Below are positions 1,806 to 29,400 of a stretch of 34,324 bases of DNA, in pieces (the stretch's first letter is position 1; every line of letters begins with the position of its first letter). Under the pieces are notes generated by a model. That model was not told the DNA's origin. It did not search any database and saw only the letters and a list, made by a program, of their open reading frames with translations. Origin of the DNA: Nanobdellota archaeon (GTDB taxonomy: Archaea; Nanobdellota; Nanobdellia; Woesearchaeales; GCA-2686295); contig JAHJQL010000050.1 of the NCBI GenBank assembly GCA_018819065.1, positions 1 to 34,324 on the forward strand, read 5' to 3'. The translations under genes were made by a program, and so were the position numbers.

Positions 1806-1988
1806 TGCGTCGGCCGGGATTCGAATTTCCGAATGTCCAGTCCCTTGACATTTCCCAGATAGGCGGCTTGGAAGGCCACAGTCATTTACGGCAACCTTTT
1901 TTTTAGTGGGCTTGACGAACATAGTGAGGAAACCCACAGTTTTGGTCAAGCTTTTCCTAAAAGATTGTAGCCGTTAGACCACCGACGC
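1806..1988 (-). tRNA. tRNA-Gly(UCC) with two non-canonical introns
   Basis: Acceptor strands GCGTCGG (1988-1982) and CCGACGC (1813-1807) pair perfectly, followed by discriminator A and no encoded CCA. The anticodon arm is GTGGC-CTTCCAA-GCCGC (1879-1863), anticodon TCC at 1872-1870. The T loop is TTCGAAT (1825-1819) with 3' stem CCCGG. Removing 1886-1968 (83 nt, at 20a/21 in the D loop) and 1826-1853 (28 nt, between 53 and 54) leaves exactly 72 nt with D stem GTC:GAC and T stem CTGGG:CCCGG. Both introns fold as bulge-helix-bulge. Intron 1: inner CAATC:GGTTG, bulge CTA, central ACGG:CCGT, bulge AAA. Intron 2: inner AATGTC:GACATT, bulge GGA, central TCTG:CGGA, bulge AAT. No intron sits at the usual 37/38 site. 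Confidence 0.9.
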
Positions 1989-10378: not shown

Positions 10379-11329
10379 ATGGGACGGTTTTTGAAAAAAG
10401 AGGGTCACAAGGATTTTCTAGGCAGGCTAAAGGAACATGCTGAGCTAATAGCGCCCGTTACTAGAGACTTGACACGCTTCGAAGTAATAAAGGATATCAA
10501 CGATATAAACCTAAAAGGCAAAAATCCATTCTTTCCGATAAAGAAATACTTCTTACCAAATCAGGAAAACCTATTGCATATAAGGAAAGGATTGACCAAA
10601 GCTGTAAAAGAACACTCTGACAAAAGAATAATATTTGGAGCGAGGCTTTGTGATATAAACGCATTGTCTGTGCTTGACAAGTTGTTTTTAAACAGCGATT
10701 ACCCCGACCAATCTTATAAACAAAGGAGAGAAAACACTATTATAGTTGGAGTAAACTGCATAACACCTCCTTCAGAATACTGCTTCTGCGGCTCAATGGA
10801 TTTAAAGAAGGAATCATACGACTTGTTACTGCATGAAAACGAGAATGATTACTACATAGATGTCTTAACAAAGAAAGGAGAAGAACTAGTAAAGTACTTA
10901 CCAGAAGAAGAGTCAGACTTCCCTCTTCCAAGAACAGATAAAAAACTCGAAGAAAAGAATTTGGAACTGTATTTTGACAATCAGTATTGGGAAAATGATT
11001 CAAATCTTTGTGTCAGCTGCCAGAGATGTACAACACTGTGTCCTTCATGTTTTTGTTTTGATGTGCATGATAGTGTAAATTCTGCAACGAAAAATGGTGA
11101 GAGAATCAGGACTATAGATTCTTGTCATTCAAAGGATTTTACACAAGTTGCAGGCGGCCACGTATTTCGAGACACAAGACTTAAAAGATATAGGCACAGA
11201 GTGCTTCATAAGATACAATTTTTCAAAGAGAAATTCGGAAGAAGCATGTGCACTGGTTGTGGAAGATGCATAGAATATTGTCACTCAAAGATAGATTTTG
11301 TTAAAACTATAAATGAAAACTTCACATAA
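10379..11329 (+). CDS. hydB: Group 3b [NiFe] hydrogenase beta subunit (Fe-S electron transfer)
   Basis: 316 residues, close to the length of sulfhydrogenase beta subunits. Two 4Fe-4S ligand sets lie in the C-terminal half: LCVSCQRCTTLCPSCFC and SMCTGCGRCIEYC. The N-terminal part carries FGARLCDINAL and GVNCITPPSEYCFCGSMD, also family-typical. Role: passes electrons between the HydD/HydA module and the flavin subunit HydG. It is the first gene of hydB-hydG-hydD-hydA, the same order as in Pyrococcus. The enzyme is cytosolic, with no signal peptide or membrane segments. Confidence 0.92.
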   Translation: MGRFLKKEGHKDFLGRLKEHAELIAPVTRDLTRFEVIKDINDINLKGKNPFFPIKKYFLPNQENLLHIRKGLTKAVKEHSDKRIIFGARLCDINALSVLDKLFLNSDYPDQSYKQRRENTIIVGVNCITPPSEYCFCGSMDLKKESYDLLLHENENDYYIDVLTKKGEELVKYLPEEESDFPLPRTDKKLEEKNLELYFDNQYWENDSNLCVSCQRCTTLCPSCFCFDVHDSVNSATKNGERIRTIDSCHSKDFTQVAGGHVFRDTRLKRYRHRVLHKIQFFKEKFGRSMCTGCGRCIEYCHSKIDFVKTINENFT

Positions 11330-11357
11330 AAAAGTTATTTTTAGGAGGATGTAATTT

Positions 11358-12146
11358 TTGATATACGAAGCGAAAAAATACAAGATAAAAGATGTGTGGC
11401 CTGAAACAAGCGACAACTTTCTTTTCAAAATAAAGACTAGAATAAATCCTCAGCCAGGACAATTTGTGGAGGTAAGTATACCAGGAATAGGTGAGGCGCC
11501 AATTTCAGGTGCATCATACAATAAGCACGAACTTGATTTGAATGTCAGAGTTGTGGGAAACGTAACAAACGCACTTATAAACTTGAAGAAAGGAGACAAG
11601 GTACACTTAAGAGGACCTTATGGGCATGGATATCCCATGGGTGACTTCAAAGGACAAGATTTAATATTAATAGGAGGAGGATGCGGAGTTGCTCCGTTAA
11701 GAGGAATAATAGAGTTTATTGATAAACACCGTATGGACTATGGTGAGATTCATCTTTTTTTTGGATTTAGGACTCCTGAAGACGTCCTTTTCAAAGAGGA
11801 AATGGATAAGTGGAGTTCAAAATACCACTTAAACCTTTCAGTTGACAAGACAGAAGGAAGCAATCCTTTCAACTGCCCAGTAGGATTTGTGACTGAGATT
11901 TTGAAAAAAGCAGAGTTACCAACGCATAACAGCGTCATAATGATTTGTGGGCCGCCGATAATGATGGACAAAACAATTGTCATACTCGAAAGCAAAGGAT
12001 TTAATGACAAGCAGATTTGGGTGAGCTTGGAGAGGCATATGAAGTGTTCAAACGGTAAGTGCGGTCATTGCATGGTTAATGGAAAATATGTGTGCATAGA
12101 TGGACCAGTCTTTCGATACGATGAGGTGAAGGGAATAGATGAGTAG
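11358..12146 (+). CDS. hydG: Group 3b [NiFe] hydrogenase gamma subunit (flavin reductase)
   Basis: 262 residues with ferredoxin-NADP+ reductase architecture: FAD-binding barrel, nucleotide loop IGGGCGVAPLRGIIEF, FFGFRTPEDVLFKEEM, MICGPPIMMDKT, and a C-terminal [2Fe-2S] site KCSNGKCGHCMVNGKYVC. It exchanges electrons with NAD(P)H. The start is TTG 11358: GGAGG (11344-11348) is 9 nt upstream, and the nearer ATG (11349) runs straight into TAA. The 3' end overlaps hydD by 8 nt. Not to be confused with the radical SAM HydG of [FeFe] hydrogenases. Confidence 0.92.
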   Translation: MIYEAKKYKIKDVWPETSDNFLFKIKTRINPQPGQFVEVSIPGIGEAPISGASYNKHELDLNVRVVGNVTNALINLKKGDKVHLRGPYGHGYPMGDFKGQDLILIGGGCGVAPLRGIIEFIDKHRMDYGEIHLFFGFRTPEDVLFKEEMDKWSSKYHLNLSVDKTEGSNPFNCPVGFVTEILKKAELPTHNSVIMICGPPIMMDKTIVILESKGFNDKQIWVSLERHMKCSNGKCGHCMVNGKYVCIDGPVFRYDEVKGIDE

Positions 12147-12930
12147 TCTGCCAATCTTTGAAAAGAGAAAGCCAAAAGTCGCCATACACTCAATTACTGG
12201 TTGTGCTGGTTGTCAGTTAGTAATATATTTTATCAGAGACAAATTACTTGATTTGCTCGGAGAGATTGACCTTGTCGCTGCTCCAATGATAAAAAGTAAG
12301 AATGATGAAGGCCCATACGATATTTGCTTTGTTGAAGGCATGGTTGCAAATGACAAAGACATTGAAAACGTAAAAGAATGGAGAGAACAATCTAAGTTTT
12401 TAGTTGCCTTTGGAACTTGTGCAACACATGGAAACGTTCCAGGAATAAAAGTTTTTTGTGATGAGAAAAAAGTAGAAAACATAGTCTATGGAGATAATAC
12501 AGAGGTATTGGCAGATTGTCAGCGAGTCAAGCCAACACCTATAGAAAAACACGTGAAGGTTGATTACTCAATTAGTGGTTGTCCACCTGAAGAGATAGAA
12601 TTTCTAAGAATGATTCAACACTTTCTCATGGGCATGAAGCCTATAATATATAATGAGCCTGTCTGCGTGGAGTGTACGTTAAAAGAAAACCGTTGCTTGT
12701 TAGATGGTGGAGAGGAGTGCCTTGGTCCTATGATAAGAGGAGGTTGTGACGCTCTATGCCCTTCAATAAACCATGCCTGTACAGGATGCCACGGACCCCT
12801 TGAAGATGCAAACATACTCCAAGTATTAAAGCTGCTTGAGAATAACGGTGTTTCAAAAGAGCTTGTAAAACAACGATTGCAAAAATATGCTGGCTTAAAA
12901 TTTGAAGAATTAGGAGTAATATTAAGATGA
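12139..12930 (+). CDS. hydD: Group 3b [NiFe] hydrogenase small subunit (delta)
   Basis: 263 residues. Proximal cluster ligands ITGCAGCQL, FGTCATHGN and SISGCPPEE are followed by eight or more Cys in CVECTLKENRC through HACTGCHG for the medial and distal clusters. No Tat signal, so cytoplasmic. It conducts electrons from the Ni-Fe site in HydA to HydB/HydG. ATG 12139 overlaps the hydG stop, indicating translational coupling. Confidence 0.93.
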   Translation: MSSLPIFEKRKPKVAIHSITGCAGCQLVIYFIRDKLLDLLGEIDLVAAPMIKSKNDEGPYDICFVEGMVANDKDIENVKEWREQSKFLVAFGTCATHGNVPGIKVFCDEKKVENIVYGDNTEVLADCQRVKPTPIEKHVKVDYSISGCPPEEIEFLRMIQHFLMGMKPIIYNEPVCVECTLKENRCLLDGGEECLGPMIRGGCDALCPSINHACTGCHGPLEDANILQVLKLLENNGVSKELVKQRLQKYAGLKFEELGVILR

Positions 12931-12941
12931 CTAAAATAAAA

Positions 12942-12960
12942 TTTTTGAAATATTCAAAAA
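12942..12960 (+). promoter_or_regulatory. Inverted repeat between hydD and hydA
   Basis: TTTTTGAA, spacer ATA, TTCAAAAA: a perfect 8-bp inverted repeat 11 nt after the hydD stop. In RNA it would be a small hairpin ahead of the hydA leader, possibly a processing or stability element that lets hydA be expressed differently from hydBGD. Function inferred only from position. Confidence 0.35.
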
Positions 12961-12961
12961 C

Positions 12962-13065
12962 AGGTGTTTTTGAGTATGACTAAGAAAATAACACTAAATC
13001 ATACAACAAAAACGGAGGTTTTTGAGTATGACTAAGAAAATTACTCTTAATCATATAACGAAAGT
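12962..13065 (+). repeat. 52-bp tandem duplication of the hydA translation start
   Basis: Two copies of a ribosome site, TTTTTGAGT spacer and the first ~12 hydA codons lie 52 bp apart (ATG 12976 and ATG 13028). Both read M-T-K-K-I-T-L-N-H, but with several synonymous differences (ATA/ATT, ACA/ACT, CTA/CTT). The 52-bp offset puts copy 1 out of frame with hydA. Confidence 0.8.
12976..13035 (+). CDS. Upstream mini-ORF from the duplicated hydA start, 19 aa
   Basis: From ATG 12976 the frame reads MTKKITLNHTTKTEVFEYD and stops at TAA 13033-13035, six nt inside hydA, overlapping its ATG 13028. It has its own AGGTG ribosome site (12962-12966) at the same spacing as hydA's GGAGG (13014-13018). If translated, terminating ribosomes would land on the hydA start and could couple or tune its translation. 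It may equally be a decayed duplication product with no role. Confidence 0.4.
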   Translation: MTKKITLNHTTKTEVFEYD

Positions 13066-14317
13066 AGAAGGACATGCACAACTAGACTTAGAAATAGAAG
13101 CCGGAAAACTTGTTAAGTGCGAACTTGGAGCAGTTGAAGGCTCAAGATTCTTCGAAGGAATAGTAGTTGGCAGAAAATATGATGAGATAAAAGAAATCAC
13201 GAGCAGAATATGCGGGATATGCAGCGTCGGACACTGCATGACATCACTAAAAGCAACTGAGAACGCGTTTGGAATAAAAGTAAGCAAACAAACAAGACTG
13301 CTAAGAGAACTAATGAGCATAGGTGAGAGGATAAGAAGCCATGCTACACACCTATATTTCTTAGCGCTGCCAGATTATCTTGGTTATGAATCAGCAATAG
13401 AGATGGCTCCAAAGTACAAAAAAGAGATAGAGAGAGCATTGCACCTAATGAAAACAGGAAATGAAATAGTAAGAGTTGTTGGAGGAAGACAAATGCACCC
13501 AGTATCATCAGTTGTTGGAGGATTTACACATGTGCCTTCAAAAAAAGATTTTGATGAACTGCTATTATTCCTTAAAGAAAGCAAACCACACGCCTTGGAG
13601 ACTCTTAATCTTTTTTGTAAGTTAAAATATCCACTTCTAGAACTTGAATCAGAGAATATCGCTTTAAAGTCAGATGACGGACAACCACTTCTTAACGGAC
13701 CAATAATCTCAAACAAAGGACTAAACACAACTGAGAATAGCTACACTCAATTCATAGAAGAGCGCATAGAAAAATATTCAACAGCAAAATTCGCAGTCAA
13801 AGATGGAAAAAGCTACGTTACAGGTGCAATTGCAAGGATGAATCTAAACTATCAAAACCTAAGCGTTGAAATAAAAGATTTGCTGACCAAAAACAATATT
13901 GAGTTTCCAAGCAACAACGTATTTTACAACAATGTTGCACAAGCAATAGAACTAGTTCACTGGACAAATAATGCAATAAGAATAATTGAAGAGAACAACT
14001 TTTATTATGAACCAATAGACTCATTCAAACCACGAGCAGGGATTGGACGAGCAGCAACAGAAGTTCCAAGAGGAATACTATTTCACGAATACGAGTTTGA
14101 CGAGAATGGATACGTGAAGAGTTGTAATATAATTACGCCAACAGTGCAAAACCTTCGAAACATGGAAGACCAAATAAGGCTTTACGTTTCTAACATGCTA
14201 AAAGAAGAAAGGAATGAAAATTATATAACTTTAGAAGTTGAAAAACTAATAAGAGCATATGACCCTTGCTTTAGCTGCTCAGCACACTTTCTAAAAGTTA
14301 ACTGGAATAAAAAATAG
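13028..14317 (+). CDS. hydA: Group 3b [NiFe] hydrogenase large (catalytic) subunit
   Basis: 430 codons including the stop. Ni-Fe ligand motifs are complete: SRICGICSVGHCM near residue 60 (L1) and DPCFSCSAH near the C-terminus (L2). The nine residues after that His (FLKVNWNKK) are the tail normally removed by the maturation protease, so this is an unprocessed precursor needing HypA/HypC and the protease at 8003. ATG 13028 is chosen over TTG 13022 because GGAGG (13014-13018) is 9 nt before it. Reaction: reversible H2 oxidation with NAD(P)+; family members can also reduce sulfur. Confidence 0.94.
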   Translation: MTKKITLNHITKVEGHAQLDLEIEAGKLVKCELGAVEGSRFFEGIVVGRKYDEIKEITSRICGICSVGHCMTSLKATENAFGIKVSKQTRLLRELMSIGERIRSHATHLYFLALPDYLGYESAIEMAPKYKKEIERALHLMKTGNEIVRVVGGRQMHPVSSVVGGFTHVPSKKDFDELLLFLKESKPHALETLNLFCKLKYPLLELESENIALKSDDGQPLLNGPIISNKGLNTTENSYTQFIEERIEKYSTAKFAVKDGKSYVTGAIARMNLNYQNLSVEIKDLLTKNNIEFPSNNVFYNNVAQAIELVHWTNNAIRIIEENNFYYEPIDSFKPRAGIGRAATEVPRGILFHEYEFDENGYVKSCNIITPTVQNLRNMEDQIRLYVSNMLKEERNENYITLEVEKLIRAYDPCFSCSAHFLKVNWNKK

Positions 14318-16201: not shown

Positions 16202-17155
16202 ATGAACTTGTTAAAAACACTTGAGGAGAAAGCCAAGAAACTTAACAAAAGAATAGTCTTTCCAGAGTTTGACGATGTAAGAGTTTTAAAAGCAGCATCA
16301 ATGTTGTCAAAGAAGAAAATTGTTAAGCCAATAATAATCGGAGACAAAAAGATAGTGCAGTCTATTGCAAAGAAAAACAGGATAAACCTTCAAAGAGTTG
16401 AAATAATTGAGCCTGATAATAAATATACTGAGAAACTATTTAAAATTAGAAAAAATAAAGGCTTAACTCTAATCGATGCAAAGAATCTGTTAAAAGAACC
16501 AATCTACTACGCAGTCATGATGGTAAATGAAGGAGATGCAGATGGTGTGGTGTCTGGAGCAAGCCACCCGACTGCACACACACTAAAACCTGCCTTTCAG
16601 ATACTAAAAACAGATGTAATAGCTTCAAGTCACATGCTAATTATTAACAAGGGAAAGACATACTTATTCGCAGATTGCGCTGTAAATCCAAAACCAACAT
16701 CTGAAGAGCTTGCGCAAATAGCAATCTCAACAGCGCAGAGTGCGAAGCTTTACAAATTAAAGCCAAGAGTTGCGATGCTGTCATTCTCAACCAAAGGATC
16801 TGCAAAACACGAGGAAGTTGATAGAGTTGTGGCAGCGACAAATATAGTGAAAAATAAAAAGCCAAACTTGATAATTGACGGAGAGCTACAGGTAGACGCT
16901 GCACTTGTACCTGATGTTGCAAAGATGAAAGCTCCAAACTCACCAATTAAAGGAGACGCTAACATTTTGATATTCCCAGACTTAGGAGCAGGAAACATAG
17001 GACACAAACTCGTTGAAAGAATTGGAGGTGCTAAAGCTATTGGCCCAATAATTCAAGGACTAAGAAAACCAGTTAATGACCTAAGCAGAGGATGCAGTGT
17101 AAATGATATAATAATGGTTGCTGTAATAACAGCCATCCAATCACAAAAGAATTAA
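16202..17155 (+). CDS. pta: Phosphate acetyltransferase
   Basis: 317 residues, the short single-domain Pta class. It shares the PTA/PTB fold: NKRIVFPEFDDVRVLKAA, the acetyl-CoA/phosphate site DGVVSGASHPTAHTLKPAF, MLSFSTKGSAKH, and FPDLGAGNIGHKLVERIGG. Reaction: acetyl-CoA + Pi to acetyl phosphate + CoA. ackA follows 26 nt later, so the pair makes ATP and acetate from acetyl-CoA. Most archaea use ADP-forming acetyl-CoA synthetase instead; the bacterial-type pair suggests old transfer, as seen in Methanosarcina and several DPANN groups. Confidence 0.95.
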   Translation: MNLLKTLEEKAKKLNKRIVFPEFDDVRVLKAASMLSKKKIVKPIIIGDKKIVQSIAKKNRINLQRVEIIEPDNKYTEKLFKIRKNKGLTLIDAKNLLKEPIYYAVMMVNEGDADGVVSGASHPTAHTLKPAFQILKTDVIASSHMLIINKGKTYLFADCAVNPKPTSEELAQIAISTAQSAKLYKLKPRVAMLSFSTKGSAKHEEVDRVVAATNIVKNKKPNLIIDGELQVDAALVPDVAKMKAPNSPIKGDANILIFPDLGAGNIGHKLVERIGGAKAIGPIIQGLRKPVNDLSRGCSVNDIIMVAVITAIQSQKN

Positions 17156-17181
17156 ATAAAATTCAAGAACTAAACTATAAA

Positions 17182-18351
17182 ATGAAGATACTAGCTCTAA
17201 ACTCTGGAAGCAACTCTTTGAAATACAAACTCATAAATATGTATACAAAGAAAACACTGATGACAGGGCACATCGACGCAATTGGCCTTGACAGATGCGA
17301 GATAAGAATTGAAATAGGCGCTAATAAGATAACAAAAAAAGCGCTTGTCAAAGATCACCTAGACGCAGTGATGATGGCTCTTCGCTCATTAAAGCAGGAA
17401 GAAGTCATAAAGAGCTATAACGAGATAGACGCAGTAGGCCACAGGGTTGTACATGGAGGAGAATACTATAATCACGCAGTCCTAGTAAACCAGCACGTGA
17501 TAAACAACATAAAAAAACTCTCTGAACTAGCACCACTTCACAACCCCCACAACCTAGCAGGAATACTCGCATGCAAAAAGATAATTCCTCACACAAAGCA
17601 ATTCGCCATCTTTGACACAGCGTTTCACCAGACAATACCAAAATATGCTTTTATGTATGGTATACCATTTGAGTTCTACGTGAAATACGGTATAAGAAAG
17701 TACGGCTTTCACGGTACAAATCACAAATATATGAGCGAGCAAGCAGCAAAACTACTTGGAAAAAAAAGCCATGAAATGATAACCTGTCACCTTGGAAATG
17801 GCTCATCAATAACAGCCATAAAGAACGGGAAATCAATAGATACAACTATGGGCTTTACACCACTTGACGGACTCATAATGGGTACGCGCTCAGGAGACAT
17901 CAACCCAGAAATACCACTTTACTTGATAAAAAAAGGGCACTACAAGATAGAGGAGATAGAAGACATCCTAAACAACAAGTCAGGGCTCCTTGGAATCACT
18001 CACAAGTCATTTGACGTTAGAGACATAAGAGCAATGGCGCTAAAAGGAGACGAAAAAGCAAAACTTGCTCTTCACATGCTTTCATACAAGATATCATTCT
18101 ACATCGGAGGATTCTCAACAATACTTGGAGACCTAGACTGCCTAGTATTCTCAGGTGGAATAGGAGAAAACGCTTGGTATATAAGAGAAAAAGTCTTAGA
18201 CTCGATAAAACACATAGGCGTCAAGTATGACAAAACAAAGAATAAAAATAATGATATAATAATATCAACACCAGACTCAAAAGTTAAAGTCTTCATCATA
18301 CCTGCAAACGAAGAATTAGAAATTGCAAAAGAAGTTGCTTTGCTTTTATGA
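17182..18351 (+). CDS. ackA: Acetate kinase
   Basis: 389 residues, full length. ASKHA-fold motifs: LALNSGSNSLKYKL (N-terminal phosphate loop), AVGHRVVHGGEYY, AIFDTAFHQTIP, YGFHGTNHKYMS, CHLGNGSSI and FSGGIGENAWYIR. Reaction: acetyl phosphate + ADP to acetate + ATP. Cotranscribed with pta; terminates against the convergent DUF192 gene at a shared hairpin. This is probably a main substrate-level ATP source of the cell. Confidence 0.96.
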   Translation: MKILALNSGSNSLKYKLINMYTKKTLMTGHIDAIGLDRCEIRIEIGANKITKKALVKDHLDAVMMALRSLKQEEVIKSYNEIDAVGHRVVHGGEYYNHAVLVNQHVINNIKKLSELAPLHNPHNLAGILACKKIIPHTKQFAIFDTAFHQTIPKYAFMYGIPFEFYVKYGIRKYGFHGTNHKYMSEQAAKLLGKKSHEMITCHLGNGSSITAIKNGKSIDTTMGFTPLDGLIMGTRSGDINPEIPLYLIKKGHYKIEEIEDILNNKSGLLGITHKSFDVRDIRAMALKGDEKAKLALHMLSYKISFYIGGFSTILGDLDCLVFSGGIGENAWYIREKVLDSIKHIGVKYDKTKNKNNDIIISTPDSKVKVFIIPANEELEIAKEVALLL

Positions 18352-18974: not shown

Positions 18975-20096
18975 TTATTCTTCATCTCCAGGAAATATTT
19001 TTGCGTTATCTCCAACACCTGGATGTACATTTAATGTTGTGCATGTTGCATATTTGTCCAATATTTGTAGCATTGCTGGGCCATCTCTTTCAGAACTGAC
19101 TATGCTTAATGTTGGCATTGCAAGTCTTGCTAATGCATATATTAGTTCGTCAAATTTTTCATAATCTTCTGCTTTTAATAATTTGCTTCTTCCTTGACTA
19201 TATTTTCCTCTTTTTAAGAAAAATGGGATTGTCACACCAATATTTGCTAATTCATTTGCACTTGGCAAACACACTCTTGAAGGTTTGAAGTTATACTTTT
19301 TTTTGAGTGAATTTGCATGTCTTCTTAGTCCTTCAATTTCTTCTATAGGATATTGATGTAAACCGAATAATGCTCCCAGTCCAACATTGTCAAATCCTGC
19401 TTCTATTGCTCTTGCTTGCGATTGTATTCTGAAATTATAATCGGCTTTAGGTCCTCTGGGATGCATTTTTTTATATGTCTTCTTATTATAGGTCTCCTGA
19501 AACACTCTAAATTGTAATGAAGTATGTTTGACTGCCAATCGTAATTTTTTTAATCCTTCTAAAGTCGGTGGTTCTGTGTTTAAGATAATCTCTTTCAAAC
19601 CTAATTTATCAATTTCAATAAGATAAGGTACTAATTTGTCAGGTAATCTTTCTCTTCCAGGAGCACTTCCTGTTAAATAACATATGTGTTTGTGTCCATC
19701 CTTCATGACTGCTTTTGTATCAAGAACTGTTTGTGCAACAGTTAACTCTCTTAAAGGGTATGCTCTTCCTTCTTTCAATGCTTTTTGCCTATTAGGCACA
19801 CTTCCAGGACAATATTGACAATAATTGACACATGCATCCCATATGTAACAGACACCATAAAAATGCATATCTTTTCCGAACACTAATTCACGAATTTCTT
19901 GTGCTTTATCAAAAATCTTTCTTCGTTTTGCTTCGTTATATACGAGTGTAATACTTTTAGGATTTTTTAAATTAAGTTTTTTTATATAATCTTTCTTAAA
20001 CCGCAGATATGTTTTTTTGCTTTCATCTAATTTTTTTTTAACCAAAACATTATTAACATCTACTTTGTATTCTGAATATATAGAATATTTTTGCAT
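18975..20096 (-). CDS. Radical SAM enzyme of the ThiH/HydG (aromatic amino-acid lyase) clade, C-terminally short
   Basis: 373 residues. The 4Fe-4S/SAM motif is YIWDACVNYCQYCPGS (CX3CX2C, preceded by the hydrophobic strand seen in HydG). Further family marks: FRVFQETYNKKTY, HPRGPKADYNFRIQSQARAIEAGFDNVGLGALFGLH, and SIVSSERDGPAML near the C-terminus. ThiH and HydG cleave tyrosine; NosL acts on tryptophan. The protein stops at NVHPGVGDNAKIFPGDEE, about 33 residues earlier than its paralogue at 21378, so it lacks the final D-R-S...GY.P segment of the clade; no auxiliary-cluster Cys are present. It is 15 nt behind the Lrp gene (ribosome site GGAGTG), in one operon. Substrate unknown. Confidence 0.82.
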   Translation of the reverse strand: MQKYSIYSEYKVDVNNVLVKKKLDESKKTYLRFKKDYIKKLNLKNPKSITLVYNEAKRRKIFDKAQEIRELVFGKDMHFYGVCYIWDACVNYCQYCPGSVPNRQKALKEGRAYPLRELTVAQTVLDTKAVMKDGHKHICYLTGSAPGRERLPDKLVPYLIEIDKLGLKEIILNTEPPTLEGLKKLRLAVKHTSLQFRVFQETYNKKTYKKMHPRGPKADYNFRIQSQARAIEAGFDNVGLGALFGLHQYPIEEIEGLRRHANSLKKKYNFKPSRVCLPSANELANIGVTIPFFLKRGKYSQGRSKLLKAEDYEKFDELIYALARLAMPTLSIVSSERDGPAMLQILDKYATCTTLNVHPGVGDNAKIFPGDEE

Positions 20097-20111: not shown

Positions 20112-21116
20112 TTATTTATTGGATAATTTATCTATAAAATTATCTTTTTTATTTTGTACTTTTATTTTTGGAAAAAATCTTTCTTGATGTAGTCTATAAT
20201 ATGTTAATAATTCATATTCCTTAATTATTGTGGAGAACTTTCTGCGCATATCATCTATGAAATTTCTTATTTGGTCTGGTGTTTGTGCTTCAAACTCAAA
20301 TTCTATGTCGTATCCTCCAATTAACTGATCTTCATAAATAATATTCGGGTTTTCTCTAATGTGTTGAATTAATTGATGTTTTTTTTCTATTGTTGAATTA
20401 AACAAAGTAATGTGAATTTTGTAATAGATGTAATTTAACTTATCAAGACCTAATGTAAGTCTGTATCCTGTGATTATATTCTCTTTTTCTAACTTTTTTA
20501 TTCGTTCAATGACTGTTTTTGAAGTTAATCCTGTTTCTTGAGACATTTTCAAAATTGTTGTTCTTGCATCTCCTCCTAGGAGAGAAAGAATTATTGTGTC
20601 TTTTTCGTCAATATCGATAGGCACACTATTTTCATATATTATGAATGGTGTGCGTTCGAGTTGTTTATCCAAATAATCTCGAGAATATGCCTTAATTTGA
20701 TGATATATGCTGAAATTTTTGTTTTCTATATAATTACTATATTTATCTATAAATGTTTGATAGAATAAGTGCATTTGATTGATATCCTTAAAATAAAAGT
20801 ATGTGTTTATATCCCAATATCCTTCTACTGAAACAACCCATCCGAGACTTGGTTCATCCAATAAATAATTTATTATTTCTTGTTCTTTTTCAGGAGAAAC
20901 TTGATATAATTTTACTAATAGACGCATCCCTATATATCCGAGTTTTCCCACATTTATCGAAGCATGAAATCCTTTTATTATGCCTTGCTTTTTTAAATTT
21001 TCAATACGATAATTTACGGTGTCCTTACTTAAATTAATCTTCTTTGCAATTTGCTGGAAGGGAATTCTGCTATTTTTATCTAATTCCTTTAAAATTGTAA
21101 TATCTCGTGCATCCAT
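20112..21116 (-). CDS. Double Lrp/AsnC-type transcription regulator, 334 aa
   Basis: Two Lrp units in tandem. Unit 1: helix-turn-helix DITILKELDKNSRIPFQQIA...TVNYRIENLKKQGII, then a RAM-like ligand domain to about residue 150. Unit 2: IDEKDTIILSLLGGDARTTI...SKTVIERIKKLEKENII, then a second RAM domain. Single-unit Lrp proteins are about 150 residues, so this is an in-line duplication that could act as a built-in dimer. RAM domains often bind amino acids, which would fit control of ThiH/HydG-like enzymes. It heads the operon with the radical SAM gene and is divergent from the second such enzyme. Confidence 0.85.
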   Translation of the reverse strand: MDARDITILKELDKNSRIPFQQIAKKINLSKDTVNYRIENLKKQGIIKGFHASINVGKLGYIGMRLLVKLYQVSPEKEQEIINYLLDEPSLGWVVSVEGYWDINTYFYFKDINQMHLFYQTFIDKYSNYIENKNFSIYHQIKAYSRDYLDKQLERTPFIIYENSVPIDIDEKDTIILSLLGGDARTTILKMSQETGLTSKTVIERIKKLEKENIITGYRLTLGLDKLNYIYYKIHITLFNSTIEKKHQLIQHIRENPNIIYEDQLIGGYDIEFEFEAQTPDQIRNFIDDMRRKFSTIIKEYELLTYYRLHQERFFPKIKVQNKKDNFIDKLSNK

Positions 21117-21353: not shown

Positions 21354-21377
21354 GAACAAGTATAATAGGTGACTTTC

Positions 21378-22535
21378 ATGAATAAATACGATCCAAAAAC
21401 AGAGTATAAAATAGACATTCAAAAACCAGAAATTCAACAAAAAATAGTAGAATCAAAACAATTGTATAACAATTTTGTTAGTGAGTTTAAAAGCATTGAT
21501 TTCAGAGATGAATCTTCAATAGAAAAAGTATATGAAGTAGCACAAAAGAGAGGTATCTTTGATAAAGCAACTGAAATCAGAGAACTTATTTTTGGAAAAG
21601 ATATGACCACTTATGGAGTGAGTTATATATCTGATTCTTGTGTAAGTGGATGTACTTATTGTCCCATAAGAAGGGATTCTATAGATGTTGAAACAGGAAA
21701 ACCGATTAAAAGAAAAAGACTTTCAATTGAAGAGTTCATTAAAGATACACAAGAAATAATTAAAGACGGTCATAGTCATATTTGCTTTCTTGTAGGAGAT
21801 GGAGATTTAACCACCCATCATCCTGAAAAAATGATTCCTTACTTACAAGCACTCGACCAGATTGGGGGAATTGATGAAATAATTCTAAATGTTACACCTC
21901 AAACAACAGAAACTTTCAAAACATGGAGATCTAATGTGAGGAATAAATCACTACAGTTTAGAGTTTTTCAAGAAACATACAATAAAGAAATATATGCACA
22001 AAAACATCCATTCGGTCCAAAAGCAGATTATAAATTTAGAAAAGAATCCCAATCCAGAGCAATGGATGCAGAGTTTGATAATTATGGTTTAGGAGTCTTG
22101 CTTGGATTAAACCCTAATCTTATTCAGGAGATAGATGATTTAGTTAAACATGCACAAGATATGACTACAAAATACAGTACGCCCCCTGCCAGAGTTTGTT
22201 TACCAACAGCAAATACACTTAATGGAGTAAACAATGTCGAGAAACAACATCATGTATCTTCAAAAGCAAACGAACTTGCATATGCTTTAACGAGATTAGC
22301 AATGCCAGAAGTATCAATAGTTAGTTCGGAAAGAGACACTCCTGAAATGCTCAAAAGATTAGATAACTATGCCACAAACAGAACTGTGGATGTTCGGCCA
22401 TCAGTAGGCGGAAATCTTGAACAAGTACTTAATAAGGAATCACTATTAAAACAAACAACAGTTCATCCAACAGATCCAGAATCTACAAAAAAAGAGTATG
22501 AATCAAGAGGATATAGATTAGTATTCAAATATTAA
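21378..22535 (+). CDS. Radical SAM enzyme of the ThiH/HydG clade, full-length paralogue
   Basis: 385 residues from ATG 21378; ribosome site AGGTGA (21367-21372) supports this start over GTG 21369. SAM-cluster motif YISDSCVSGCTYCPIRR (CX3CX2C). Shared with the paralogue at 18975: GIFDKATEIRELIFGKDM, LQFRVFQETYNKEIY, HPFGPKADYKFRKESQSRAMDAEFDNYGLGVLLGL, EVSIVSSERDTPEML. It keeps the C-terminal segment VHPTDPESTKKEYESRGYRLVFKY-like end that the other lacks, but no tail Cys for a HydG-type second cluster. A ThiH- or NosL-like lyase is the best family guess; substrate unknown, and no thiamine or [FeFe]-hydrogenase genes are in the window. Confidence 0.82.
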   Translation: MNKYDPKTEYKIDIQKPEIQQKIVESKQLYNNFVSEFKSIDFRDESSIEKVYEVAQKRGIFDKATEIRELIFGKDMTTYGVSYISDSCVSGCTYCPIRRDSIDVETGKPIKRKRLSIEEFIKDTQEIIKDGHSHICFLVGDGDLTTHHPEKMIPYLQALDQIGGIDEIILNVTPQTTETFKTWRSNVRNKSLQFRVFQETYNKEIYAQKHPFGPKADYKFRKESQSRAMDAEFDNYGLGVLLGLNPNLIQEIDDLVKHAQDMTTKYSTPPARVCLPTANTLNGVNNVEKQHHVSSKANELAYALTRLAMPEVSIVSSERDTPEMLKRLDNYATNRTVDVRPSVGGNLEQVLNKESLLKQTTVHPTDPESTKKEYESRGYRLVFKY

Positions 22536-22776: not shown

Positions 22777-25700
22777 ATGGTGGATAAGAATACTGCATTT
22801 ATTCTATGGTTTGACCAATTAGGAATTGAAGACATCAAATACGTCGGTGGAAAAAACGCATCTTTAGGGGAGATGTACATCAATCTAACCCCGCGAGGAG
22901 TAAGAATACCAAACGGGTTTGCAGTCACAGCAACGGCTTATCACTATCTTTTAGACAAGGCAGGGGTTAGAGACAAAATAAAAAAAATTCTATCAGACTT
23001 AAACACTCATAACATTAAAAATTTGCAGGAAAGAGGATACAAAGTTAGAGAAATCATAAAAAACACTGAGTTTCCACCAGAACTAAGAAGTGTAATAGTC
23101 GAAGCATATGGTCACTTGTGTAAGCAGTACGGAGAAAACACTGATGTCGCGGTCAGAAGCAGCGCAACAGCAGAAGACCTGCCAGATGCAAGTTTTGCAG
23201 GACAGCAAGAAACATACCTTAACATCAAGGGAGAAGAGCAGCTAATAGATGCTTGCAAGAGGTGTTTTGCCTCATTATTCACAAACAGAGCTATAAGCTA
23301 CAGGGTGGATAAGGGATTTGACCACTTCTCAATTGGGCTAAGCATTGGAGTGCAAAAAATGGTGCGCTCAGATATGGCCTGCTCAGGAGTAATGTTCTCA
23401 ATAGATACAGAGTCAGGATTTAAAGACGCGATATTTGTCACAGGAGCATATGGACTTGGAGAAAACGTTGTCCAAGGAGCAGTCAACCCAGACGAGTTCT
23501 ACGTTCACAAACCAACACTAAGACAGGGTTTTAAGCCAATAATTATGAGGAAGATTGGTGAAAAAGCAATAAAGATGATATACACAACCGACAGCAAGCA
23601 CCCAACAAAGAACGTCAACGTCTCACCTGAAAACAGGAAAGTGTTCTGCATAAACGATGATGAGGTTTTATCACTTGCGAGAATGGCCCAGACAATAGAA
23701 GATCATTACTCCTGGAAAGCTGGACACTTCAAACCAATGGATATGGAATGGGCCAAAGACGGTCAAAGTGGAGAATTATTCATAGTCCAGGCAAGACCAG
23801 AAACTGTCCACTCACAAAAAGATGTCAATGTACTGGAGAACTATGAGCTAAAAGAAAAAGGAGAGGTAATAATCACCGGAAAATCAGTTGGTTCAAAGAT
23901 AGGAAGTGGAAAAGCACACATAATAAAAGATGCTCACAGAATAAGTGAGTTTGAAAAAGGAGAAGTGTTAATCACAGACATGACTGACCCTGACTGGGAG
24001 CCAATTATGAAGATAGCATCAGCCATAGTGACTAATAGAGGGGGTAGGACGTGTTTTTCAGGAGATACAAAGCTTCTGACAAATGAAGGATTTAAAACCT
24101 TTGAGAATGTTTTTAATGGCTACGAAGGCCTTAAAGTGCCGTCTCTTAATAGAGTAACTCTTAAGATTGAATGGAAAGAAGTAAAAGCAGTTATGAAGAA
24201 ACAATCAAGGCTTATTAAAACTCAATGTTCACAAACAGGGCGAATGAATGGAAACTTTCTAAGAATTACTCCCGACCACAAGATGCTCAATATAAGAGGC
24301 GCAGAACTAGTGGATACTGAAATGTCAGCTGTTTTAGCAGATAATGAATGTTTATTAGTCGCTCAGAGATTACCAAGCCTGAAAGAATCAACAACAAAAG
24401 AGCAGATGCTTGCATATTTCTTAGGAGGAATTATGACTGATGGGCACATATACCAATCAAAGACTCATGGAGAAGTTGCATTCATACAAAAACCTACTCT
24501 TGATAAGCAAAGATTTATCCTTAAGATGAATGACTGTCTAAACCAGGTGTATGGTGAAAAGTTTAAGGAAACAAAGAAAAAAGAATCAAGCGGAGAAATT
24601 AGAGGAAAAACAGTGGTTGGAAATGCTAATTCATACAGGTGTTATTCAAAATTATTGGCAAGAGAAGTTCAGCTTGAATCTGAAGCAATGGTTCAAAGCC
24701 TCTTAACATCTGATGAGCTGCTATCTTACAACTTCTTGGCAGGTGTGATTGATGGTGATGGAACGTATAGCAACGGACGAGTCAACATTTACGTGTCAAA
24801 ACAAGAATTATTAGAGCCAATAATAGTGTCTTGTTTAAGGGTTGGAATTGTTCCCCAAGTAACAACTAATAGAAGTATTTACAACGTCCAGATAGTTGAA
24901 CAGCTTGATAGAATAGGAGAATTCACTAACAGAGTTAAATGCAAGGATAAAAGAAAAACTGAAAACAGGTTTTTTAATGCAAAACAACTATTTAAACCAA
25001 ATGTTAGCTCTGACATAAACAATAGAGTAAATAAAAACTTGTTAATAGGAACAAGTAACTTACGTAAAAACACTGCTTTGTTTAGTTCAGATTTAAAACA
25101 ACGAATAACTAATCTTTTAAATTCTGATATGAGACAAACAAGAGTTTCATTCGTTGAAGAATTAGGATTTGACGATGTGTATAACATAACAGTTGAGGAT
25201 AACCATAATTACATCGTGTTTACAGATAGATACACGCCCGTGTTAGCAAATAATTGTCACGCGGCAATCATCAGCCGAGAGCTTGGAATACCTTGTGTTG
25301 TTGGAACAAATAATGCGACAGAATTGGTTAAGCCAGATCAGAAAGTAACAGTTGACTGTTCACAAGGCGCCGAAGGATATGTGTATGACGGGCTCTTAAA
25401 GTTTGATATTAAAAAAACAACTCTTGACCAGATACCAAAAACAAAGACTAAAATAATGATGAACCTCGCATCGCCTGAACAAGCGTTTGAGCAGAGCTTT
25501 ATACCAAATGACGGTGTAGGACTTGCAAGAGAAGAATTCATCATCAACTCATACATCAAAGTCCATCCATTAGCACTCTTAAAATTTGACCAACTAAAGG
25601 ATGAAGAAGTAAAAAACCAAATTAGAGAAATAACTTACGGATACAAAAACAGAGAAGATTTCTTCGTAGATAAATTAGCAGAAGGAGTTGGAATGATTGC

Positions 25701-26400
25701 AGCAGCTTTCTACCCAAAAAAAGTTATTGTTCGACTTTCAGACTTTAAGTCAAACGAATACGCAAACTTGATAGGTGGAGCTCAGTTTGAGCCAAAAGAA
25801 GACAATCCGATGATAGGCTGGAGAGGCGCTTCAAGGTACTATAGTGAAAACTATAAAGAAGCGTTTGGATTAGAATGCAAAGCCATGCTAAAAGTTAGAA
25901 AAGAAATGGGGCTAAAAAACCTTGAAATAATGATACCATTCCCAAGAACGGTTGAAGAGACGAAGAAAGTCATAGCGACGATGGCTCAGTACGGCTTAAA
26001 ACAGGGAGAAGACGGCCTTAGAATAATAGGTATGTGTGAGATTCCTTCAAACGTAATCCTTGCAGATGAATTCTTGGATGTTCTTGATGGTTTCTCAATA
26101 GGAACAAACGATTTGACCCAGCTAACACTTGGAGTTGACAGGGATTCAGAACTCGTAGCACACGTCTATGATGAACGAAACGAAGCAGTCAAGAGACTCG
26201 TAAAACAAGTAATTGAGGTTGCCAACAAGAAAGGTAAATATATAGGTATATGTGGCCAAAGCGTGAGTGATTATGTTGAATTTGCAGAATATGTTGTTCA
26301 ATGTGGAATTCAAACCATGTCCTTAAATCCCGATACTGTGATAAAGACAACCATTGCTGTTGCGAAGTTGGAAAAAAAGCTTGGTATCAGTACTGATTAA
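22777..26400 (+). CDS. ppsA: Phosphoenolpyruvate synthase containing an intein
   Basis: 1207 residues as translated; removing the 401-residue intein leaves 806, normal for PEP synthase (pyruvate, water dikinase). N-terminal ATP-binding domain: KYVGGKNASLGEMY, VAVRSSATAEDLPDASFAGQQ. Swivelling phospho-His domain: IVTNRGGRT then CHAAIISRELGIPCVVGT, with the catalytic His next to the splice site. C-terminal PEP/pyruvate barrel: DGVGLAREEF, MIPFPRTVEE, FSIGTNDLTQLTLGVDRDS and GICGQSVSDYVEF. Reaction: pyruvate + ATP + H2O to PEP + AMP + Pi, for gluconeogenesis. Activity requires intein splicing. Confidence 0.95.
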   Translation: MVDKNTAFILWFDQLGIEDIKYVGGKNASLGEMYINLTPRGVRIPNGFAVTATAYHYLLDKAGVRDKIKKILSDLNTHNIKNLQERGYKVREIIKNTEFPPELRSVIVEAYGHLCKQYGENTDVAVRSSATAEDLPDASFAGQQETYLNIKGEEQLIDACKRCFASLFTNRAISYRVDKGFDHFSIGLSIGVQKMVRSDMACSGVMFSIDTESGFKDAIFVTGAYGLGENVVQGAVNPDEFYVHKPTLRQGFKPIIMRKIGEKAIKMIYTTDSKHPTKNVNVSPENRKVFCINDDEVLSLARMAQTIEDHYSWKAGHFKPMDMEWAKDGQSGELFIVQARPETVHSQKDVNVLENYELKEKGEVIITGKSVGSKIGSGKAHIIKDAHRISEFEKGEVLITDMTDPDWEPIMKIASAIVTNRGGRTCFSGDTKLLTNEGFKTFENVFNGYEGLKVPSLNRVTLKIEWKEVKAVMKKQSRLIKTQCSQTGRMNGNFLRITPDHKMLNIRGAELVDTEMSAVLADNECLLVAQRLPSLKESTTKEQMLAYFLGGIMTDGHIYQSKTHGEVAFIQKPTLDKQRFILKMNDCLNQVYGEKFKETKKKESSGEIRGKTVVGNANSYRCYSKLLAREVQLESEAMVQSLLTSDELLSYNFLAGVIDGDGTYSNGRVNIYVSKQELLEPIIVSCLRVGIVPQVTTNRSIYNVQIVEQLDRIGEFTNRVKCKDKRKTENRFFNAKQLFKPNVSSDINNRVNKNLLIGTSNLRKNTALFSSDLKQRITNLLNSDMRQTRVSFVEELGFDDVYNITVEDNHNYIVFTDRYTPVLANNCHAAIISRELGIPCVVGTNNATELVKPDQKVTVDCSQGAEGYVYDGLLKFDIKKTTLDQIPKTKTKIMMNLASPEQAFEQSFIPNDGVGLAREEFIINSYIKVHPLALLKFDQLKDEEVKNQIREITYGYKNREDFFVDKLAEGVGMIAAAFYPKKVIVRLSDFKSNEYANLIGGAQFEPKEDNPMIGWRGASRYYSENYKEAFGLECKAMLKVRKEMGLKNLEIMIPFPRTVEETKKVIATMAQYGLKQGEDGLRIIGMCEIPSNVILADEFLDVLDGFSIGTNDLTQLTLGVDRDSELVAHVYDERNEAVKRLVKQVIEVANKKGKYIGICGQSVSDYVEFAEYVVQCGIQTMSLNPDTVIKTTIAVAKLEKKLGISTD
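24052..25254 (+). mobile_element. Intein with LAGLIDADG homing endonuclease inside ppsA
   Basis: 401 residues. Block A begins at Cys 24052 (CFSGDTKLLTNEG); block B is NFLRITPDHKML; LAGLIDADG helices are YFLGGIMTDGH and NFLAGVIDGDG, so the homing endonuclease looks intact (each ends in an acidic residue). Block F is VYNITVEDNHNYIV; block G is VLANN followed by the +1 Cys of the host (25255). The terminal Asn is present, but the penultimate residue is Asn rather than the usual His. The insertion splits GGRT from CHAAI, directly before the catalytic His, a highly conserved site typical for inteins. Confidence 0.95.
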
Positions 26401-26422: not shown

Positions 26423-26440
26423 TGCAATTTTTTTTTATTC
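26423..26440 (+). terminator. T-run after ppsA
   Basis: A run of nine T (26428-26436) begins 28 nt after the ppsA stop and overlaps the stop codon of the convergent giant gene. It is a plausible U-tract terminator for ppsA. Confidence 0.4.
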
Positions 26441-29400
26441 TATGTCTAGGTAGAAGTAGTATGTGACTGTTCCGCTTTGTCCGCTGTTGTTGATTGCTAC
26501 TATTAGTTCGTAGTCGGTGTTTGTCGTGTTTTTGTAGTCTTTTTGGTTTGGGTTGATTTTGGCTGCGAATGCGAAGTTGTTTAGTGTGCTTGGGCTTGTG
26601 TTGTCTTGGAATAGTCCTGCTTTGAATAGTATTTTGTTTAGTGTTCCTTCTTGTGTGTATCCTCTCAGTTCTACTGTTGGTACGTTTTCTATTTGTGCTA
26701 TTGTGTTGTTTGTGTTGTATGTGTTTGTTGCGCTGTCTTGGTCTGTTGTGGTCCAGTTGTTTATTTGGTCTAGTGTTGTGGTGTCGTTTATTGCTTGTAG
26801 ATTTGAGAAGTCAAAGTTGTTGTTGGTGGTTGCGAATGCTGTTTTTATTTGATCTTTTGGAACGTTTCCGAAGTTGTATAATTTGTTGTTGCCGATTCCT
26901 ATGCTTAGGTTTCCGCTTACGCTTCCGTGATATCCTTGCCATTTGATTGTGTTTCCGGTTGTGATTGTTAGGTTTACTTCTGTTGTTTGGCTGCCTATTG
27001 CGGTTTGTGTTTCAGGGGCTGGTGTTGCTATTCGTTCTGTTGCGCCTATTGTTATTGTTGCGCCTGTTATTGCTGCTTCTTTGTTGGTTATTTTTAGTAT
27101 TGTTAGATCGTTGTATGTGCTGGTGTTTACGGTGATGTTTGCTTCGTCAGCAGCGAAAAATTTGTAATTGTGGTTGCCGGCTCCGATTGTTGTGCCGCTA
27201 ATCGTTGCAATGTATAGTTTTCCGTTTGTGACGTCTGTATCGCCTACGTCGTTTTCGCTCATCGTGTAGTTGTTGGTGCTATCAATTTCTACTTTGACCC
27301 ATTGTGCTGCGTCGTTTTCGGCGTCTGTGTAGTTGACGCTGAATTGGTATGATTGTATTGTTGTGCCGGTGTTTGGCGTCACGTTTCCTTGTGTTAGGCT
27401 TGGTGGTCCTCCTTCTCCTCCTCCTGTGCCTGTGATTCCGTTTACGACGTAGTATTTTGTTCCGTCTATTGTGTCATATGTGAAGCTCATTCCGCTTATT
27501 GTTTTGTTTTCGTGTAGGGTTACTTTGTTTGCACAGTTATAGGTTGTTTCTTCTAGGTTGGTTGCTCCTGGGCAGATGTAGATTTCGCCGGTTGCTGTGT
27601 CTGTGTATGGTATGTATAGTGTTTTTGATGTGTTGATTCTTGAATCATAGTTTGTTCTGTGGAACACTGCTTTTTTTAGTGTTATGTTGTTGTCTATTGT
27701 TAGTCCTGTTAGGTCTAGGTCTCCTGGTGTTTCGTTGAATCGTACGTGTATCTTGGCTATTATTCGTCCCGTGTTTTGGTCTTTTATATATACGTCTTTT
27801 GGTGTTGTTATTCTAGTGTTTGTGAGGTTTGTTGTTGCGTTGTCTGCTAGTTCTATTTTTATGTTTGTGTTGTTTATTATTATTAGTGCTCCTTCGTTTT
27901 GTATGTTTAGGTTGTTTGTGGTGTTGCTTGCGGTGTAGTTAATGGTTGCTGTGTTGTTGCATTTGTAGTTGTATGTTCCTATGTTTAGTGTTGAAATGTC
28001 TGGGTTGCTTACTGGTATGTTGTTCTTGTATAATAGTGGTGTGACTTCTTCGTTGTTGGCTGTGCATGTGACTGTTGATTGTGTTGGGTATGGTAGTGTA
28101 GTGTTTGGTGTGATGTTTAGTGTTAGTGTTGTGGTTGTTGCGTTACTGATTGTATAATTGCTGAATCCGTTTACTGTGAATAGTACTTGATTATTAGCGT
28201 ATGATATTAGTTGGCAGGTAGTACATAACTGGTTATCTCTAAGTATTGTTGGGTTTGTGTATTGTCCGTTTATTGTTAGGTTTGCGCTTGTGTTGAAGCT
28301 TGTGTGTAGGTTTGCGGTGTTGACGTATATCCAGTTTTGTCCGAATAAAATGTTGTTTGTGAGGTTTGCTGTGCTGGCGTTTATTGCGTTGTTCCAGTTG
28401 ATTGTTCCGTAACCAGTTTTTTGGATGATAAAATTGTTTACACTTTCAATGTTTTCAACAGCACCAAGGTTGGTGGTGTTGCCGTCAAATCCTGTTGTGT
28501 AGTAGCATTGTGATAAGCTGGTGGCACCTGTTGCTGAGCTGAAACTTGTTGGGCAGTTATATTGTACGCCTGTGATGCAGTATGTTGTGCTTGTGCATTG
28601 GCTTTGGCCTGTTCTCGTTGTTGATGTACCTCCAGTGCTGTAGTGTCCATTGCTCACACTGTTTTGTACTCCGTTTGTGCAATAATACTCGTTTCCGCCA
28701 CAAGCAGTTTGTCCAGTTCTAGTGGTGCTTGTGCCTCCTGTGGTATAGTATCCTGGTGTTGCTTGTGTACAACTACTAGCACCTGTGTTAGAATAATAAT
28801 CGTTAGAACCGCATGCATTGGCAGTGGCGCTGCTGCTTCCTGCGCTGCAGTAGTATCCTGCGTTGCATTGTCCGTTGCAGGTGTTTACATTGTTTGTTGT
28901 TGAGCTTCCGTAGTATCCTGCATCACACTGAGATCGACTGTTGCTTAATGTTGCGCTGTAGTATCCTGTTCCTGCTACGTTGCATGTTCCGCTTTCGCAG
29001 TTGTAGTATCCGCTGTTTCCTAGGCAGCTGCTTAGTGCTGTTCCTGATGTTGTGCTTGTGGTGTTTGAGTTTGTTGGGCAGCTTGTTGCGCTGCTGCTTC
29101 CTGCTGTGCAGTATTTTGCAAATCCACAAGCATTCTGTGTTGCACTTGTGCTTCCTGCTGTGCAGTAGTATCCTGCGTTGCATTGTCCGGTGCAGGTGTT
29201 TGTTGTTTGTCCGCTTGTTGATCCGTAGTATCCTGCGTTGCATTGTCCGTTGCATGTGCTTACGCTGTTTGTTGTTGATGATCCGTAGTATCCTGCATTG
29301 CATTGTGTTCTTGTATCACTATTATTTGTAGAATAATAGCCTGCGCCAGCAACAGTGCAAGTGTTTGTAACCTTGTAATACCCGCTATTGCATGCCCATG

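Follow-up and report, generated by a model that had tools for sequence, protein, structure and literature searches.

A twice-interrupted tRNA-Gly(UCC) gene in a Woesearchaeota archaeon and the mobile-looking hairpin element in its larger intron

The window analysed here, a stretch of 34,324 nt from a Woesearchaeota archaeon (DPANN), carries a tRNA-Gly(UCC) gene on the minus strand at 1806-1988 that is split by two introns, one of 83 nt at position 20a/21 and one of 28 nt at 53/54. Can such a gene be the working tRNA-Gly(UCC) of its cell, and where do its introns come from? We conclude that the gene is very probably functional and apparently the only one of its kind in this genome, with two bulge-helix-bulge (BHB) motifs that the endonuclease EndA would cut and a larger intron that is a copy of a mobile-looking hairpin element, here called E.

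Structure and conservation of the tRNA-Gly(UCC) gene

All features of the gene lie on the minus strand. Exon 1 (1969-1988) comprises nucleotides 1-20a, that is the 5' strands of the acceptor stem and the D-stem and the D-loop up to GGCU, and ends in ...ACGGCU; the intronless orthologs L040, L046 and L054 share its frame. Exon 2 (1854-1885) covers nucleotides 21-53 from AUGAC to UCUGGG and holds the anticodon arm, with the anticodon TCC at 1872-1870. Exon 3 (1806-1825), UUCGAAUCCCGGCCGACGCA, contributes the T-loop, the 3' strands of T-stem and acceptor stem and the discriminator A73. Joined, the exons give a tRNA of 20+32+20 = 72 nt with an intact 7-bp acceptor stem and no encoded CCA. A putative TATA-like box, TGTTTATAAAAAAA, is located at 2011-2024, 23-36 nt upstream of G1.

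Intron 1 (1886-1968) is of the BHB type. Its central helix of 4 bp, ACGG/CCGU, is flanked by the 3-nt bulges CU^A and AA^A, where the caret marks the predicted cut, and by the inner helix CAAUCUUUU/AAAAGGUUG; the D-stem serves as outer helix. The 3' half of this motif lies at 1888-1900, where AAAAGGTTG pairs with CAATCTTTT and CCGT pairs with the exon sequence ACGG (1974-1971), an assignment based on sequence and pair counts. Intron 2 (1826-1853) has a central helix UCUG/CGGA of 4 bp, 3-nt bulges GG^A and AA^U and the inner helix AAUGUC/GACAUU. It lacks a good outer helix and is therefore a relaxed BHB. The predicted cut follows the second nucleotide of the bulge in both motifs. The pre-tRNA folds better than its shuffles (z = -3.63).

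The unspliced gene is recognised neither by ARAGORN nor by Rfam. We enumerated every BHB-compatible intron, removed these singly and in combination, and scored the products with ARAGORN. The best solution is a tRNA-Gly(tcc) from which exactly the two introns have been removed, with a score of 117.8. For intron 1 a length of 81 nt scores equal to 83 nt; we assign 83 nt because the intronless orthologs fix the junction. With up to two BHB introns allowed, the same search yields no tRNA, either from 150 shuffles or from 240 segments of 260 bp taken elsewhere in the window. The sequence-only reading, which had proposed a tRNA-Gly(UCC) with two non-canonical BHB introns and a 72-nt product, was exact in its coordinates, and the splice search and the intronless orthologs agree with it.

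In the three intronless orthologs, the junctions read GGCT^ATGAC (or GGTT^ATGAC) and GGG^TTCGAA without gaps, as predicted. An intron at 20a/21 of tRNA-Gly(UCC) occurs in at least 13 genomes of the order, with lengths of 17-92 nt and wholly different interiors in a conserved frame; in this listing the ends given for L051 and L053 are off by one nucleotide. Over 13 genomes, 95.5% of the cells of the intron-1 BHB are paired, compared to 85.2% in shuffles, and 19 double-sided changes are found where 7.0 are expected, a number that none of 500 shuffles reaches. When the partner strand is slid, pairing falls to 22-48%. The 53/54 intron is present in at least 6 genomes, with introns at the same site in L027, L028, L033, L042 and L047; in L042 and L047 the gene contains three introns, the third at 59/60. 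Several families of the order share intron 2, which is small and of ordinary BHB type. The sequence-only reading had noted that such introns are much less known from DPANN genomes; the host does belong to DPANN, yet within its order introns of this kind are widespread.

Within the genus of the host, tRNA-Gly(UCC) is intronless in G003, carries only a 59/60 intron in G005 and has the 20a/21 and 53/54 introns in the window; the gene of G006, from the same family, has no intron. These differences within genus and family indicate rapid gain and loss of introns at this tRNA.

Failure of ARAGORN and Rfam on the unspliced gene and an assembly that is 95.5% complete would both fit a pseudogene or tRNA relic, with random debris as inserts and the true tRNA-Gly(UCC) elsewhere. 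Searching the host genome with the whole gene returns four matches, namely the gene itself and three copies of the intron-1 sequence without exons. A second intact tRNA-Gly(UCC), which the sequence-only reading had named as the sign of a pseudogene, was not found in this 95.5% complete assembly; since the same search recovers the ortholog exons in dozens of genomes, those of other families included, a second copy would have been detected. Together with the perfect BHB geometry of both inserts, the covariation across families, the exact junctions in the orthologs and the intact acceptor stem, this makes the pseudogene reading highly improbable. A group I or group II self-splicing intron was also considered and rejected, as no Rfam match is found in the window at gathering score and none up to E 1 at the window locus (L025).

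Host genome and splicing endonuclease

The host has a genome of 1.52 Mb, in which the tRNA model of Rfam clearly recognises 10 tRNA genes. Among the genomes G000-G059, the tRNA genes that are recognisable without an intron-aware search number 6 to 42 across the order and 6 to 29 in the genus of the host. Ten tRNAs are too few for a living cell, and from the loci that we read directly, which are those located by the search, it follows that the remaining tRNA genes of the host are interrupted.

Elsewhere in the window, a gene of the phosphoenolpyruvate synthase/PPDK type at 22777-26400 is split by an intein (PF14890, residues 434-814). The regions 10379-14317 and 16202-18351 hold a NiFe hydrogenase cluster (PF00374 large subunit) together with phosphotransacetylase and a likely acetate kinase, a fermentative content. 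Two related radical-SAM proteins are encoded at 18975-20096 (minus strand) and 21369-22535 (plus strand), on either side of a two-part Lrp/AsnC-like regulator gene (20112-21116). The minus strand at 26435-33193 encodes a repetitive protein of 2252 aa rich in Gly, Ser and Asn, probably a surface protein.

The host encodes one EndA, a single-domain-type protein of 212 aa (L023:188-826) with one N-terminal and one catalytic domain. Among solved structures, the closest is 3iey_A, the catalytic subunit of the N. equitans enzyme, followed by 1a79, the subunit of the M. jannaschii homotetramer. PF01974 has exactly one match in each of 24 related genomes, including the one-contig genome G017. We aligned the protein to 2cv8 (S. 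tokodaii) and 4fz2 (ARMAN-2), taking the loop positions of broad-specificity enzymes from PMC12397907, and found no insertion at the Crenarchaea-specific or the ARMAN-specific position. A beta-like paralog was not found in the host genome (G000), where a very diverged beta could escape the search. With no beta subunit found in that search and neither loop insertion seen in the alignments, the enzyme does not match the (alpha-beta)2 type of broad specificity.

According to the sequence-only reading, processing of these introns needs a splicing endonuclease of broad specificity, and the type of enzyme encoded in the genome should be checked. The requirement is a reasonable deduction and an EndA gene is present; the enzyme, a single-domain EndA, has none of the known loops, and no beta subunit was found. 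A broad specificity of this EndA is plausible, with the known structural basis missing, and the enzyme may not cut every relaxed BHB in this genome. In the pathway we propose, this single EndA-type endonuclease would cut the transcript at both BHB motifs, and the exons would then be ligated by RtcB, as is general in archaeal biology. A single-domain EndA without the broad-specificity loops, next to introns all over the tRNAs, presents a puzzle in enzymology.

Element E, its copies and their insertion sites

Sequences matching intron 1 occur at many sites besides tRNA-Gly genes. Common to these is a core of the form CAAYCTTTT-loop-AAAAGCTTGACCAAAA, which folds into hairpin H1. In the window H1 lies at 1947-1967 as CAATCTTTT-AGG-AAAAGCTTG, followed by ACCAAAAC (1946-1939); its loop stems covary. 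H1 is often followed by a second hairpin, H2 (GUGGG-UUUC...UCAAG-CCCAC), found at 1906-1937 in the window, and related copies change both of its arms (GTGAG/CTCAC, GTATG/CATAC, ATAGG/CCTAT). H1 loops of at least 7 nt form 2.55 extra base pairs compared to 0.62 in shuffles, so that the stem is extended. H1 is an imperfect hairpin with a conserved mismatch: of 136 copies, 124 have C or T at position 4. An alternative pairing of GTCAAGC (1916-1910) with GCTTGAC (1951-1945) is possible and is present in the minimum-energy fold. A fixed pseudoknot in intron 1 (AGGAAA/UUUCCU) was rejected, because copies alter one side only (in L055, AGT for AGG). Intron 1 and related copies match no known RNA family in Rfam.

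We found the core in 61 of 353 genomes of the order; a control with the reversed pattern gives zero in all of them. Among public genomes, it is found in Diapherotrites, Thermococcus, Methanosarcinales, Methanocellales and Methanomethylicales. A unit of E is mostly 50-150 bp long and non-coding, with no gene. In Clostridia, including many Ruminococcus (L104, L108, L114, L122, L139 and others), a repeat CCCGCAAGCTTTTTGAAAAAAGCTTGACCAAAAACTTT contains the E core, often at contig ends; it may belong to the family of archaeal E, with which it shares the core, but flanks and context differ.

Intron 1 of the window is 97% identical in local alignment to that of G045, although the two hosts belong to different families and the exons differ; G183 and G186, from a third family, also have an intron of this kind at 20a/21. 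Near-identical intron sequences are found in different tRNA genes or positions, as in the transposable tRNA introns of Thermoproteales type. In the 16S rRNA of two genomes (L239 in G172:C7 and L275 in G183:C3), E begins a BHB intron of the form GGATTAGAT^ACAACC...GTTGCTAATT^ACCCGAGTAGTCC with the central helix UUAG/CUAA. E is also found outside RNA genes, beside the starts and ends of protein genes.

An intact T-arm lies within -130 to +200 bases of E for 51 of 136 copies, compared to 4 of 325 control positions, and many other copies interrupt the T-loop itself at 59/60. At this site, in a sum of two tallies that pools element copies with other introns, the exon/intron pairs of the central helix are TTCG+CGAA in 14 cases, TTCA+TGAA in 16, TTCA+CGAA in none and others in 10. 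The flank 5' of E is repeated downstream in 34 of 136 copies; when flanks taken from different copies were paired as a control, the figure was 1%. The duplicated flanks are variable, from 17 to 110 bp, and in 32 of the 34 the repeat ends at most 8 nt from E. Most duplications involve the end of a tRNA or the start or end of a protein gene, and the distal copy is intact; a few of them are neighbouring similar tRNA genes (L127, L088) or tandem arrays (L061, L119), which do not count as insertions. With dispersed short copies and target duplication, E has features expected of a MITE-like element. We also spliced all 136 copies automatically; many matches result, and since the antisense ones are contaminated by adjacent intact tRNAs, these counts are not used.

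Two further arrangements were observed beside tRNA genes. In L057, L063, L066, L072 and L077 a reverse-oriented E abuts the 5' end of the tRNA. In two Methanomethylicales genomes (L147 and L151), H1 lies between the 3' end of a tRNA and a reading frame resembling an SSV-type integrase, as at an attachment site.

Origin of intron 1 and relation to known systems

E may be a non-autonomous mobile hairpin, and where enough of the flank is duplicated upon insertion the target gene would stay whole. In RNA genes, a copy would survive when its ends (CAAC...GUUG), helped by a few bases next to them, build a full BHB through which EndA can cut the copy out of the transcript. In the BHB of intron 1, the two ends of E form the pairing CAAUC/GGUUG between them and the pairing ACGG/CCGU with the exon of the D-loop. 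Since the ends of E fit into a BHB in tRNA and rRNA genes, EndA could remove the element from the RNA and the insertion would be tolerated. A short direct target duplication as the source of every BHB was considered and rejected: it fits palindromic targets such as TTCGAA and TGGCCA and fails at the D-loop site of the window, because there the end of the intron complements the exon rather than repeating it. In its general form, that tiny non-coding hairpins of a family widespread in archaea enter tRNA, rRNA and protein genes, duplicate long target stretches of variable length and are removed from RNA by the tRNA endonuclease through their BHB-forming ends, we regard this proposal as evenly balanced between right and wrong.

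The sharing of sequence among introns could also arise with no transposing DNA, if these were only vertically inherited BHB introns whose intron-1 sequence is kept by a function of the intronic RNA or by conversion between tRNA genes, a process described for Thermoproteales. The presence of 20a/21 introns in many families of the order is in line with such inheritance, as is the position of E in tRNAs, where it begins at, or within about 2 nucleotides of, the 5' splice site; transposition of introns between tRNA genes is reported by Fujishima 2010, as cited in PMC8450103. Copies of E outside RNA genes with 17-110 bp of duplicated flank do not agree with this explanation, nor do the opposite orientations at one and the same site of tRNA-Leu, antisense in L127 and sense in L164, and the turnover of introns within the genus of the host (G003, G005 and the window). 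We consider vertical inheritance a minority possibility, to be taken seriously. The small BHB introns of 20-49 nt found at 20a/21 in other families allow that E may have replaced, or grown from, an older intron.

Still less probable, and in our view unlikely, is that E represents a remnant of IS200/IS605-type elements, which use a Y1 transposase, or of REP-like palindromes. The imperfect hairpins with their conserved mismatch and the four Y1_Tnp loci of the host genome are reminiscent of such elements. The IS200/IS605 family is not known to leave target duplications, whereas those of E are long, and Y1_Tnp is present in 9 of 22 E-rich genomes and missing from 13. A reverse transcriptase (RVT_1) is found in 3 of 16 E-rich genomes. 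Of these two enzymes, neither is present consistently across E-rich genomes, and neither is favoured as the partner of E. The mobile hairpin remains our preferred origin of intron 1.

Known parallels exist for the introns themselves. Thermoproteales carry multiple non-canonical BHB tRNA introns at 0.84 introns per tRNA (PMC8450103), and Sugahara 2008 and Fujishima 2010, as summarised there, describe multiple tRNA introns in this order, for which transposition was proposed. In both systems the introns lie outside 37/38, one tRNA can hold as many as three, related intron sequences are dispersed and the intron load is high. They differ in the host, here a Woesearchaeota archaeon (DPANN), in the EndA, here of single-domain type without the Crenarchaea-specific loop, and in intron 1, which carries a conserved hairpin element that is also found outside RNA genes. 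The 16S rRNA of Thermoproteales contains BHB introns as well (PMC4496867); in contrast to these, both 16S introns from Woesearchaeota start with the hairpin element of the tRNA-Gly intron. At the tRNA-Thr(GGU) locus of Caldiarchaeum, a 1.87-kb insertion with an 813-bp ORF, next to a fragment of a tRNA, has been put forward as the event that created an intron (PMC3293823). There too the intron is non-canonical, a tRNA fragment lies beside the insertion and a mobile element is proposed for intron gain, but E is non-coding and far shorter. IStrons combine a group I intron with an insertion sequence (PMC4227781). Their logic is alike, as an insertion that is taken out of the RNA does the host gene no harm; IStrons self-splice and carry IS genes, whereas E has no gene and no match to catalytic introns and would depend on the EndA of its host.

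Archaeal tRNAs with several introns are already known in kind. The present gene adds a member from a DPANN lineage. The hairpin element, which links introns of tRNA and 16S genes to dispersed copies with duplicated flanks, is new as far as the open literature shows: our search of the open literature found no description of the E sequence, which may have been described earlier elsewhere, and no systematic treatment of tRNA introns in DPANN. Although this genome is 95.5% complete, standard tRNA finders see no more than about 10 of its tRNA genes, and annotation of such genomes will therefore be badly incomplete. Gain and loss of introns is visible here at one tRNA within a genus, which bears on the origin of the non-canonical tRNA introns of archaea. 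With its 83-nt intron copied from a dispersed element that has duplicated flanks, the gene makes the birth of introns by insertion testable. The repetition of E across archaeal tRNA and rRNA genes suggests how such introns may spread, and if the proposed mechanism is true, E would be the equivalent of an IStron built on a BHB, and new introns of tRNA and 16S genes would arise from it directly.
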